Shown here one piece after another: positions 1,917 to 8,598 of a stretch of 64,000 bases of DNA. The position numbers and the translations under genes are program-made. How positions within the stretch are numbered: position 1 is the first letter of the stretch; each line of letters begins with the position of its first letter. Under the pieces are notes generated by a model that did no database searches, was not told the origin of the DNA, and saw only the letters and a program-made list of their open reading frames with translations. The DNA is from Pseudonocardia hydrocarbonoxydans. Lineage in GTDB: Bacteria > Actinomycetota > Actinomycetes > Mycobacteriales > Pseudonocardiaceae. Location of the stretch: positions 1-64,000 of the forward strand of contig NZ_BJNG01000030.1 of the NCBI RefSeq assembly GCF_006539565.1, written 5' to 3'.

Positions 1917-2618
1917 TCAGCGTGGGTGGGCGGTCGCCGGGTCCATGTCGAAGGCCACCCGCCCGGCCACGACGGTGAGGAGCGGGCGACGCGGGAGGCC
2001 GAGGGCGCGCAGCTCGTCGGCCATGGGGTGTCCGGAGCCCAGCGCCACCGACGCCCCGCGCCCGACCCGGATCCCGCCGATCCGCGCCCGCACGGCCGAG
2101 GCGAGGACGCCGCCGTCGTGCGGCGCCAGCGCCGTGACCGCGCCGCGCAGCGTGCCCGGCAGCCGCAGCGCGGCGTGCAGCGCGGCGGTCAGGACGGGGC
2201 GGCCGGTGTCGTCGGCGAGGTGACAGGTGGCGTCGGCGCCGTCGATGCCCAGCTCCGCCCGCGCGAGCCACTTCGGCAGCCCCCACAGCGCGCGCCCGGC
2301 CTCCATGGTGAACGTCTGCGTCACCGGGAGCTGGTGGATGTAGGTCCCGGTCCGGCCGCGGTGCCGGACCAGGAAGGCGACGCCGGCCTCGTCGTAGTCG
2401 CCCAGGTCGTTGACGCGGTAGTCGACCAGCACGAGGAACAGCGGCGTCCGCCCGGCCACCGACACCGGTTCCAGGCCGGTGCCGGTGAGCAGCGCGCGCA
2501 CGCCCGCGGTCCGGACGAGGTAGGTGGCGCAGGCCGCGGAGGCCTCGCCGATCCGGACGGTGAACCGGAGCCGCCGGCCCTGGACCTCCCAGCTGCCGTC
2601 GTCGAGCTGAGTCGCCAT
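1917..2618 (-). CDS. Acetoacetate decarboxylase-like (ADC superfamily) protein
   Basis: A 233-residue protein resembling the acetoacetate decarboxylase superfamily: an N-terminal strand-rich half with LFLVLVDYRVNDLGDYDE, then VTQTFTMEAGRALWGLPKWLARAEL, where family members carry the 'GxPK' segment with the surrounding WGLPKW pattern. In true decarboxylases a Schiff-base lysine drives catalysis; I cannot confirm the equivalent here, and many actinobacterial members have no known reaction. I chose the ATG at 2618 (MATQLDD) because the conserved region begins just after it and the reading frame upstream looks non-coding. The gene diverges from the leader peptide and cysteine dioxygenase unit. 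Confidence 0.7.
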   Translation of the reverse strand: MATQLDDGSWEVQGRRLRFTVRIGEASAACATYLVRTAGVRALLTGTGLEPVSVAGRTPLFLVLVDYRVNDLGDYDEAGVAFLVRHRGRTGTYIHQLPVTQTFTMEAGRALWGLPKWLARAELGIDGADATCHLADDTGRPVLTAALHAALRLPGTLRGAVTALAPHDGGVLASAVRARIGGIRVGRGASVALGSGHPMADELRALGLPRRPLLTVVAGRVAFDMDPATAHPR

Positions 2619-2716
2619 GGCGCCATTGTGGACCCGTCGGACATTGCGCCGGACGCGTGTCCCACGCGATGGGAGCGGGTGGAGCCGCCGGGGCCGGTCG
2701 TGCTTTCCTTCGGGGC

Positions 2717-2797
2717 ATGTCGCCCGCCGCCGTCCTCGGAGAGATCTGGGGCTGCCGCCGGGCCGACCACTTCGACCAGTGCTGTCGCGCGAGCTGA
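2717..2797 (+). CDS. Candidate 26-residue cysteine-containing leader peptide
   Basis: A short open frame, ATG at 2717 and TGA at 2795-2797, encodes a 26-residue peptide beginning MSPAAVLGEIWGC and ending DQCCRAS. It has three cysteines, two of them adjacent just before the stop, and sits 40 bases upstream of the cysteine dioxygenase gene. In mycobacteria, cysteine-rich leader peptides are established as cysteine-responsive attenuators of sulfur-metabolism genes, so location and composition suggest the same role here. The SD of the next gene (GGAG, 2829-2832) could pair weakly with CTCC at 2815-2818. The peptide has not been shown to be translated; this is inference from position. Confidence 0.6.
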   Translation: MSPAAVLGEIWGCRRADHFDQCCRAS

Positions 2798-2837
2798 CGA
2801 TCCCGATCCGTCCGCTCCGCCCCCCACTGGAGTCCCC

Positions 2838-3332
2838 GTGCTGTCGCACGCCCCGCGTCGCCCCGCGCCCACGCCCCTGGCCCTCGCCGACCTGGTCGGC
2901 CTCACCCGTCGCGTCGCCGACGAGGTGCGTGCCGGGCGCCATCCCGTCGTCGTCGACCCGGAGCAGCGCTGGTACCGGCGCCTGCTCGGCGACGACTTCG
3001 TCGACGTCTGGCTGATCGGCTGGGCCACCGAGCAGGCCGCCGAGCTGCACGACCACGGCGGCTCGCTCGGCGCGCTCACCGTCGTGTCGGGCGGCCTGGT
3101 GGAGCGGCGCTGGGACGGCACGGTGATGCGGTCGCGCCCGTTGCGGGCGCGGCGCAGCGTCGGGTTCGGACTCGGGCACGTCCACGACGTCGGCAACCCG
3201 TCGACGGCGCCGGCGGTCAGCGTGCACGCCTACTCGCCGCCGCTGACCGCGATGTCCTACTACGCCGTGGACGGTGGCAGGCTGCGCCGCACGCGCAGCG
3301 AGCTGGTCGCGGCGGGGGAGGGCGTGGGATGA
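2838..3332 (+). CDS. Cysteine dioxygenase type I
   Basis: A 164-residue cupin of the bacterial cysteine dioxygenase family, which uses Fe(II) and O2 to turn L-cysteine into cysteine sulfinate in the cytoplasm. Cupin motif 1 carries the iron ligands H71 and H73 in ELHDHGGS, and the third His lies in GLGHVHDVGN (H114 or H116). The second-shell Cys of the animal enzyme's Cys-Tyr crosslink is not evident, as is common in bacterial members. The GTG at 2838 is preceded by TGGAG at a good distance, and the frame upstream has no family similarity. The stop overlaps the rhodanese ATG (ATGA), so the two are translationally coupled and form a cysteine-catabolic pair under the upstream leader peptide. 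Confidence 0.85.
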   Translation: MLSHAPRRPAPTPLALADLVGLTRRVADEVRAGRHPVVVDPEQRWYRRLLGDDFVDVWLIGWATEQAAELHDHGGSLGALTVVSGGLVERRWDGTVMRSRPLRARRSVGFGLGHVHDVGNPSTAPAVSVHAYSPPLTAMSYYAVDGGRLRRTRSELVAAGEGVG

Positions 3333-3694
3333 CGATCGAGGAGATGCTGGCCGCGGCCCGCGCCCGGCTCGACCGCCCCGACCCGCCCCGCGCGGCCGAG
3401 CTGGTGGCCGACGGCGCGATCCTCGTCGACACCCGCCCCGGCTGGCAGCGCGAGCAGGAGGGCGGGATCCCGGGTGTGCTGGTCATCGAGCGCAACCACC
3501 TCGAGTGGCGCCTGGACCCCACCTCCGACGCCCGGATCCCGCAGGCCGTCGACCACGACGTCACCTGGATCCTGTTCTGCTCCGAGGGCTACAGCTCCAG
3601 CCTGGCGGCGGCGTCGCTGCAGGACCTGGGCCTGCGCAACGCCACCGACCTGGACGGCGGCTACCGGGCCTGGAAGGCCGCTTTCGGGGGTTAG
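3329..3694 (+). CDS. Rhodanese-like sulfurtransferase
   Basis: A 121-residue single rhodanese domain. The acidic strand AILVDTRPG near residue 32 and the active-site loop FCSEGYSSS, with the persulfide-forming C84, fit a functional enzyme; LDGGYRAWK near the C-terminus is the closing rhodanese signature. Such enzymes move sulfane sulfur between donors and thiol acceptors. Its ATG overlaps the stop of the cysteine dioxygenase gene, and this pairing is common in actinobacteria, suggesting it handles sulfur released during cysteine catabolism. Its stop overlaps by four bases the stop of the convergent acyl-CoA dehydrogenase gene. Confidence 0.88.
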   Translation: MTIEEMLAAARARLDRPDPPRAAELVADGAILVDTRPGWQREQEGGIPGVLVIERNHLEWRLDPTSDARIPQAVDHDVTWILFCSEGYSSSLAAASLQDLGLRNATDLDGGYRAWKAAFGG

Positions 3695-7242: not shown

Positions 7243-8598
7243 ATGAGGCGGACACGAGCGGTACTGCTCACGCTGGCCGTGCTGGCCACCAGCTCCTGCG
7301 CGGGCTGGGGTGGGTCGGTGGGCGGGGGTGGGCCGGACAGCATCAACGTGCTGATGGTCAACAACCCGCAGATGGTGGACCTGCAGCGGCTCACCGCCGA
7401 CAACTTCACCCGCGAGACCGGCATCACCGTCAACTTCACGGTGCTGCCGGAGAACGACGTCCGCGACAAGATCAGCCAGGAGTTCTCCAGCCAGGCGGGC
7501 CAGTACGACGTCGCCACGCTGAGCAACTTCGAGATCCCGATCTACGCCCGCAGCGGCTGGATCGCCCCGATGGACGAGTTCATCGCGAACGACCCGGGGT
7601 TCGACCAGGACGACATCCTCGCCCCGATGGTCACCTCGCTGACCGGCGACGACGGGCAGGTCTACGGCCAGCCCTTCTACGGCGAGTCGTCGTTCCTGAT
7701 GTACCGCCGCGACGTCCTGGAGCAGGCCGGCATCACCATGCCGGCCAACCCGACGTGGCCGCAGGTCGCCGACATCGCCGCCCGCGTCGACGGCGCGCAG
7801 CCCGGCATGGCCGGGATCTGCCTGCGCGGCCAGCCCGGCTGGGGGCAGGTCTTCGCCCCGCTGACGACCGTGGTCAACACCTTCGGCGGCACCTGGTTCA
7901 CCCAGGACTGGCAGGCGCAGGTCGACTCCCCGGAGTTCACCGAGGCCGTCCAGTTCTACGTCGACCTGGTCCGCGAGCACGGCCAGACCGGTGCCCCGCA
8001 GGCCGGGTTCACCGAGTGCCTCAACAACCTGATCCAGGGCAACGTTGCGATGTGGTACGACGCCACGTCGGCGGCGGGGTCGCTGGAGGCCGAGGACTCG
8101 CCGGTCCGCGGGCTGATCGGCTACGCGCCCGCGCCGGTCGTCGAGACCGACTCCGCGGGCTGGCTCTACGCCTGGTCGTGGGGCATCCAGGCGGCCAGCG
8201 AGCGCAAGGACGCGGCCTGGCGGTTCGTGTCCTGGGCGTCGGGCAGGGACTACGAGCGGCTGGTCGGCGAGCAGGTGGGCTGGTCGTCGGTGCCGGCGGG
8301 CAAGCGGGCCTCGACCTACGAGATCCCCGAGTACCTCGCCGAGGCCGGCGCGTTCGCCGAGCAAACGCAGGCGGCGATCGAGTCGGCCGACCCGCGCGAC
8401 CCCGGCGTCCAGCCGCGGCCCGCGCTCGGCATCCAGTTCGTCGGCATCCCGGAGTTCCCGGACCTGGGGACGCAGGTGTCGCAGCAGATCAGCTCGGCGA
8501 TCGCCGGGCAGGTGAGCGTGCCGGACGCGCTGGAACGCGGCCAGCAGCTCGCCGACGACGTGGCGGAGCGGTACCGGTCCCGGGAGGAAGGGTCATGA
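7243..8598 (+). CDS. ABC transporter substrate-binding lipoprotein, sorbitol/mannitol type
   Basis: A 451-residue extracellular solute-binding protein (family 1). The signal sequence MRRTRAVLLTLAVLATSSC ends in a lipobox with the lipidated cysteine at residue 19, so the mature protein is anchored outside the membrane. The body matches the binding proteins of polyol/sugar systems (GQPFYGESSFLMYRRDVL, then NVAMWYDATSAAGSLE). It heads an operon of four genes, each overlapping the next by four bases: binding protein, two permeases, dehydrogenase. The stop overlaps the next ATG. The neighbouring Zn-dehydrogenase supports a sugar alcohol as ligand, but the sequence does not name it. Confidence 0.88.
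   Translation: MRRTRAVLLTLAVLATSSCAGWGGSVGGGGPDSINVLMVNNPQMVDLQRLTADNFTRETGITVNFTVLPENDVRDKISQEFSSQAGQYDVATLSNFEIPIYARSGWIAPMDEFIANDPGFDQDDILAPMVTSLTGDDGQVYGQPFYGESSFLMYRRDVLEQAGITMPANPTWPQVADIAARVDGAQPGMAGICLRGQPGWGQVFAPLTTVVNTFGGTWFTQDWQAQVDSPEFTEAVQFYVDLVREHGQTGAPQAGFTECLNNLIQGNVAMWYDATSAAGSLEAEDSPVRGLIGYAPAPVVETDSAGWLYAWSWGIQAASERKDAAWRFVSWASGRDYERLVGEQVGWSSVPAGKRASTYEIPEYLAEAGAFAEQTQAAIESADPRDPGVQPRPALGIQFVGIPEFPDLGTQVSQQISSAIAGQVSVPDALERGQQLADDVAERYRSREEGS

Follow-up and report, generated by a model that had tools for sequence, protein, structure and literature searches.

Mycobacterial leaderless cysteine upstream open reading frames (uORFs) were reportedly shown by Canestrari in 2020 to be cysteine-responsive. 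Cysteine leader peptides in Actinobacteria had been predicted in 2005 from stretches of consecutive Cys codons close to the stop codon in front of cys and cbs operons, at which no terminator was found according to the available part of that work (Seliverstov 2005, PMC1262725), and leaderless cysteine-rich uORFs were described in mycobacteria at cysA2, Rv0485/Msmeg_0932 and nirA/Msmeg_4527, with ribosome occupancy at the cysA2 locus, in the available part of PMC4633059. A reannotation of Streptomyces lividans names eight leader peptides, none of which is cysteine-dependent in the portion available (PMC8079986).

The window examined here, a stretch of 64,000 nucleotides from Pseudonocardia hydrocarbonoxydans (NZ_BJNG01000030.1, positions 1 to 64,000), carries a short cysteine-containing frame in front of a dioxygenase-rhodanese gene pair. 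Judged by comparison among relatives, this leader is real and conserved and very likely regulatory, and it belongs to a motif class, xFWxxR[RQ]xxxFDxxC, that is distinct from the RRHVDF class. The class shares with the mycobacterial uORFs the short ORF, here predicted to be leaderless, the Cys codons near the stop and the place directly before sulfur genes, and differs from them by mostly having a single constant UGU rather than a Cys run, by its own motif, and by a stem at the Shine-Dalgarno (SD) region in the dioxygenase group; its targets are also other ones, the word "dioxygenase" having no occurrence in the available text of PMC4633059, although the two classes may overlap. The leaders of 2005 likewise have Cys codons near the stop and are actinobacterial, but they were described for cys and cbs operons, and no motif of the window class was met in the available part of that paper (PMC1262725). 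Leaders of the RRHVDF/RRHVDL type have RR and D before the Cys and the UGU in common with the window class, and differ in the longer spacing from RR to Cys and in having no FW motif. Cysteine leaders as such are known; the motif class, the UGU rule and the targets set the present ones apart from those compared above. Cysteine leaders, so far a matter of a few mycobacterial operons, thereby gain a second class that can be recognised in many Actinobacteria, where it marks a set of sulfur genes, and for which the signature together with UGU provides a sequence handle.

Conservation of the leader frame

The earlier note had proposed a 26-codon frame 40 bases ahead of the next gene (gap 2798–2837, GTG at 2838), and the frame is borne out by its coordinates (Table 1) and by its relatives. 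A dioxygenase scan of genome contigs gave 27 loci from Pseudonocardia, Actinomycetospora and Actinacidiphila, and a leader frame with the same core stands upstream of the dioxygenase in 26 of them, the contig of the one remaining locus (L013) giving just 111 upstream bases. Among 20 aligned leaders W, RR, F, D and the second Cys were invariant, and in a broad alignment of 28 sequences, whose rows were picked for the motif, invariance was observed for W, the first R, D and the Cys. Codon-position diversity in 23 leaders was 0.189, 0.131 and 0.347 for positions 1, 2 and 3, so that the frame is kept across relatives with mostly third-position variation, which the earlier note had proposed to look for and which is typical of a frame under translation. 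The window's own profile scores (2.0e-17 and 9.3e-12) are uninformative, since its peptide was a row in both profiles.

The RRHVD[FL]xR...C signature is absent from the window peptide, which reads RRADHFDQCC, and the earlier note's suggestion that it lacks the RRRHVDF-like signature and may represent another class is supported. NCBIfam returned no family for the peptide, and Rfam nothing at gathering score in 2400–3000.

Table 1. Features of the leader, its operon and a related triple locus in the same genome.
Feature	Position	Strand	Remarks
Extended TG of putative -10	2701–2702	+	column statistics, 23 leaders
Putative -10 element TTCCTT	2705–2710	+	-12 to -7 from leader ATG; consensus of 23 leaders
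Leader ORF	2717–2797	+	ATG 2717, TGA 2795–2797; 26 residues, MSPAAVLGEIWGCRRADHFDQCCRAS and stop; predicted leaderless
Codons of conserved peptide W11..R14R15...F19D20	2747–2776	+	alignments of 20 and 28 sequences
5' arm CCAGUG of SD-region stem	2776–2781	+	inside D20-Q21-C22 codons; stretch 2770–2850, z -2.93
UGU codon of Cys23, proposed stall codon	2783–2785	+	TGT in 139/139 leaders
3' arm CACUGG of SD-region stem	2825–2830	+	overlaps SD GGAG (2829–2832)
Thiol dioxygenase gene	2838–3332	+	Pfam CDO_I (PF05995), E=2.8e-14; nearest solved relative ergothioneine dioxygenase
Single-domain rhodanese gene, CSEGYSS loop	3329–3694	+	Pfam Rhodanese, E=4e-12; 4-base overlap with dioxygenase
Three class leaders in a row	L089 (contig 15), 8348–12759	-	before TauE, NMT1-type ABC system and PF03601 gene

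A constant UGU codon

In the window leader two Cys occupy residues 22 and 23, so that a pair does stand near the end, as the earlier note had it; the pair is not strictly terminal, however, with RAS coming between it and the stop. Neither the conservation of this pair nor its role as stall site or sensor held up. In the 20 aligned leaders the residue preceding the invariant Cys is C, W, G, F, S or R, and the pair is therefore not conserved. A protein-pattern search, which fixed the Cys at the amino-acid level with a stop within 45 codons and left its codon alone free, yielded 139 distinct leaders from the loci collected so far, a part of the profile matches. An adjacent Cys of some kind was observed in 41 of them and absent in 98, a Cys immediately before the constant one in just 20, while 88 have only one Cys in the stretch from W-4 to the stop; consecutive Cys are not a feature of the class, though the window has them, and the Cys pair was rejected as the sensor.

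The constant element is one codon. The constant Cys is encoded by TGT in 139 of 139 leaders, against 51 of 457 Cys codons in the collected loci and 20 of 124 in the window genes (11–16%), and against 15 of 72 for the remaining Cys codons inside the same leaders; these rows come from related species with 85 distinct core peptides and are not 139 independent events, and no probability is attached to them. Of the profile matches read that fall outside the pattern, five also have TGT at the Cys site (L181, L190, L193, L194 and L199), and so do 5 of 5 collected RRHVDL-type leaders at the Cys that follows their DLxR stretch. From this Cys to the stop there are 0–13 codons in 138 of the 139. The bases flanking UGU had no fixed identity in this set, which makes a pairing motif a poor explanation, and wobble decoding at limiting Cys-tRNA would be a good explanation of the constancy. 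Two matches of the leader-class profile, L172 and L189, have no Cys codon, the frame ending earlier or an Arg taking its place.

Distribution and downstream genes

A DNA pattern of the RRADHFD codons with two mismatches was too loose to be of use, matching 117 of 200 genomes and often matching as a reversed control too. A narrow-profile search in 394 genomes of the taxonomic class refound the class; matches at E<=1 occurred in 269 genomes, most of them weak and likely due to chance. A broader profile at E<=0.001 placed the class in 50 of the 200 genomes searched from the window's family, 10 of 11 from its own genus among them, at 2–5 copies each, and a phylum-wide sample gave it in 9 of 296 genomes, the window's own genome being counted every time. 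The best match of the broader family search (L106) duplicates the leader of L017.

The 139 leaders precede a limited range of genes. By tblastn 84 were assigned, to the dioxygenase (39), winged-helix genes (16), TauE/SafE (15), SBP_bac_5 (8), NMT1-type substrate-binding proteins (5) and a PF03601 (YeiH-like) gene (1), with Pfam domains tested on ten representatives; the other 55, for which eight cluster representatives were run against Pfam, include 33 before clustered beta-carbonic-anhydrase-like proteins, presumably the family of Rv1284, next to cysDN; 6 before MetY-like and 4 before luciferase-like monooxygenase genes; 6 in one group whose one tested member gave an SDR-like match below threshold; five whose targets occur once each, including TauE, an APS kinase gene and another of luciferase-like type; and a last leader lacking an ORF. 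Leaving aside the beta-carbonic-anhydrase-like, SBP_bac_5, SDR-like and winged-helix targets, those with a guessable function would serve sulfur uptake and assimilation, and with a Cys near the stop upstream of sulfur genes the class fits, in this respect, the broad kind of leaderless cysteine leader.

Five class copies were detected in the window genome, including those before the dioxygenase-rhodanese pair and before a beta-carbonic-anhydrase-like gene. The contig-15 leaders (Table 1) are located downstream of genes whose products carry sulfite reductase, PAPS-reductase (two genes), CysN-like GTPase and CbiX domains, and an RRHVDL-type leader precedes sulfite reductase in this genome. Two small ORFs of about 36 and 47 amino acids, the second membrane-like, were seen by eye on the minus strand of L089 at about 8060–8347, in the gap that separates the third leader from the PF03601 gene, with a similar one after the leader in L129.

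The winged-helix genes behind class leaders (about 190 amino acids, several families) were observed in L070, L077, L086, L088, L095 and L096; L138–L143; and L079 and L092–L094. Trans_reg_C was matched by Pfam in the three that were tested, and in one family, judged by eye, genes of SBP and FMN-reductase-like type lie close by. Their position marks them as candidate sulfur regulators.

Promoter spacing

Relative to the first base of the start codon, as assigned in this analysis, 22 of the 23 leaders have T at -12 and 21 have T at -7, and TGTG occupies -17 to -14 in 19–21 of 23 per base. The window copy is weaker, with the TG shifted by one base and T rather than the commoner A at -8. An SD-like sequence before the leader start was found in 0 of the 23, the window included. 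A -10 element at -12 to -7 has the spacing expected of a transcript that begins at the start codon, and this suggests that transcription may start at the leader ATG.

The dioxygenase-rhodanese pair

The residues H71-D72-H73, H130 and Y132 are invariant in 27 dioxygenase sequences, in keeping with the CDO_I cupin fold. A conserved substrate-binding Arg as in cysteine dioxygenase is not seen in the family: the position of that Arg in the B. subtilis and rat enzymes aligns, in a weakly aligned part, to R48 of the window's enzyme, and is R or L among its relatives. The closest solved relatives are ergothioneine dioxygenases. The idea that the window enzyme is an ortholog of these was considered and is not supported by the neighbourhood, as close orthologs of the Thermocatellispora tengchongensis enzyme (8qfl–8qfr) have, by pattern, a leader or a neighbouring rhodanese in 0 of 23 loci. 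A PF10017 (EgtD-type) gene in the window genome shows only that ergothioneine may be made.

The earlier note had annotated the gene as a cysteine dioxygenase that destroys cysteine. Its CDO_I family membership stands, whereas the destruction of cysteine is doubtful on account of the ergothioneine dioxygenases as closest kin and of the leader class preceding sulfur-acquisition genes; the regulatory evidence raises the possibility that an enzyme so annotated serves sulfur acquisition.

Other cysteine leaders before dioxygenases

Unrelated Cys leaders in a separate frame were observed by eye at the same place in 16 of 25 located loci of other dioxygenases, with a rhodanese neighbour in 15 of these 16 and none seen for L248. 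Among eight loci taken from one family, five carry MRCCC, two RRHIDLKRTCTAICR and one MQSCR, each running directly into its stop codon, the differing leaders standing behind the same promoter sequence. A ..ECCR.. leader was present in three loci of another family, and a RRVHMDLVRYAGCVC frame in two loci of a third. No Cys leader was seen in 8 of the 25 located loci (L224, L225, L228, L230, L240, L241, L243 and L249); a further one, L238, was not located and lies outside the 25. The tiny MRCCC and MQSCR leaders are those of L227 and L231–L237, and an RRHIDL-type leader takes their place in two relatives. In L229, which likewise has no separate leader, the motif appears as a RRRLHVDLRRQASALCRR stretch that continues in frame into the dioxygenase and forms the upstream part of its reading frame.

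RNA structure at the Shine-Dalgarno region

The earlier note had expected the pairing around the downstream SD to change on stalling. A stem between leader and SD region was indeed found and is supported for the dioxygenase group by sequence comparison: RNAalifold recovered it unaided from 22 sequences, its cells were paired in 84.3% as against 22–41% in slid controls, and its covariation score was equalled by 2 of 500 shuffles. The support comes mainly from one covarying pair, mostly U-A, G-C in L011 and A-U in L024 and L027; pairs with a double change were no more frequent than in shuffles, 293 of 500 of which reach their number. L010, L015, L017 and L026 fit the stem poorly. The outer stem appeared in the minimum-energy fold of all ten stretches folded, with z values relative to shuffles ranging between +0.09 and -3.51, these stretches having been chosen from 9 of the 22 loci with the four badly fitting ones left out. 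In duplex tests over the 27 dioxygenase loci a leader paired with its own SD at a mean of -11.76 compared with -10.07 for swapped partners (mean z -1.29), and in the TauE, beta-carbonic-anhydrase and MetY groups no clear leader-SD complementarity was detected (mean z -0.11, -0.68 and 0.44, respectively).

The release of the SD on stalling, the other part of that expectation, was not supported by folding. When a ribosome at UGU was masked in the class-B dioxygenase set, the mean unpaired fraction of the SD was 0.25 before and 0.21 after, a gain above 0.1 occurred in just 3 of the 27 loci, and the window itself (L001) went from 0.48 to 0.00. In the eight loci with MRCCC and related leaders the SD was unpaired at 0.00 without a ribosome and at 0.05–0.27 with UGU in the A site (free from +16). 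Masked-ribosome folding was accordingly dropped as proof of SD release, having failed for class B and given a modest effect in one other family; that a stalled ribosome opens the SD is inferred.

The same folding result would suit a regulation that needs no SD masking, either Rho-dependent transcription attenuation or termination and reinitiation at the gene 40 bases on. Rho has been proposed for mycobacterial cys leaders in the available part of PMC1262725, but a stem at the SD region in two families with differing leader sequences speaks against such a scheme, which we regard as possible though rather unlikely.

Proposed mechanism and direction of control

The reading preferred here, to which we give a probability of roughly 0.6, is that the window leader acts in cis on the dioxygenase-rhodanese operon, as a leaderless sensor of cysteine, and belongs to a multi-copy sulfur regulon. 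In this model 70S ribosomes would start at the 5'-terminal ATG, and the nascent peptide (FW/IW..RR...FD) would lead the ribosome to a single wobble-read UGU Cys codon. On a shortage of Cys-tRNA it would wait there, occupying the DQC codons, which could then no longer pair with the SD region of the dioxygenase, and the operon would be translated; with ample cysteine it would reach the stop a few codons on and leave, and the stem would close. The operon would most likely scavenge sulfur, as sulfite, from some non-cysteine thiol instead of degrading cysteine. For an enzyme acting on cysteine, induction by low cysteine would be futile, whereas the other targets and the kinship of the enzyme suggest scavenging, with which switching on at low cysteine would be coherent.

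The opposite direction would be expected of an arrest peptide. In TnaC an arrest peptide stalls on abundance, and by the same logic a nascent chain here would sense an excess of cysteine or a derivative and stall, inducing the dioxygenase for its removal. The whole peptide is conserved, with W and FD at a fixed distance from the Cys, which exceeds the needs of codon counting, and the dioxygenase gene has a catabolic annotation; yet the class also precedes acquisition genes, at which induction by excess would be senseless, minimal MRCCC and MQSCR leaders stand in for the peptide in another family, and the UGU constancy points to decoding, so that this explanation appears improbable. The UGU rule makes a codon-charging sensor and an arrest peptide separable by a one-base synonymous change. 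A role of the small protein in trans, with no meaning attached to where its gene lies, would suit the strong amino-acid conservation but is highly improbable in view of the repeated placement before sulfur genes, the several variants per genome and the extreme codon constraint at one site.

Beyond the proposed cysteine-sensing leader of this one operon, a wider proposal is put forward tentatively, at somewhat less than even odds: one wobble-read Cys codon in a leaderless mini-ORF might be a cysteine-starvation sensor shared across the phylum, encompassing the FW..RR...FD..C, RRHVDL..C, ..ECCR, MRCCC and MQSCR leaders, and might have been invented repeatedly before the dioxygenase-rhodanese pair, which would then be thiol-desulfurising and sulfite-releasing, with ergothioneine or another thiol as substrate, and not cysteine-degrading.

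Elsewhere in the window, a strong inverted and tandem repeat around GGGGGACTCGCGG ... CCGCGAGTCCCCC was seen by eye at 1825–1910, between two genes, and is possibly a terminator or a mobile palindrome.
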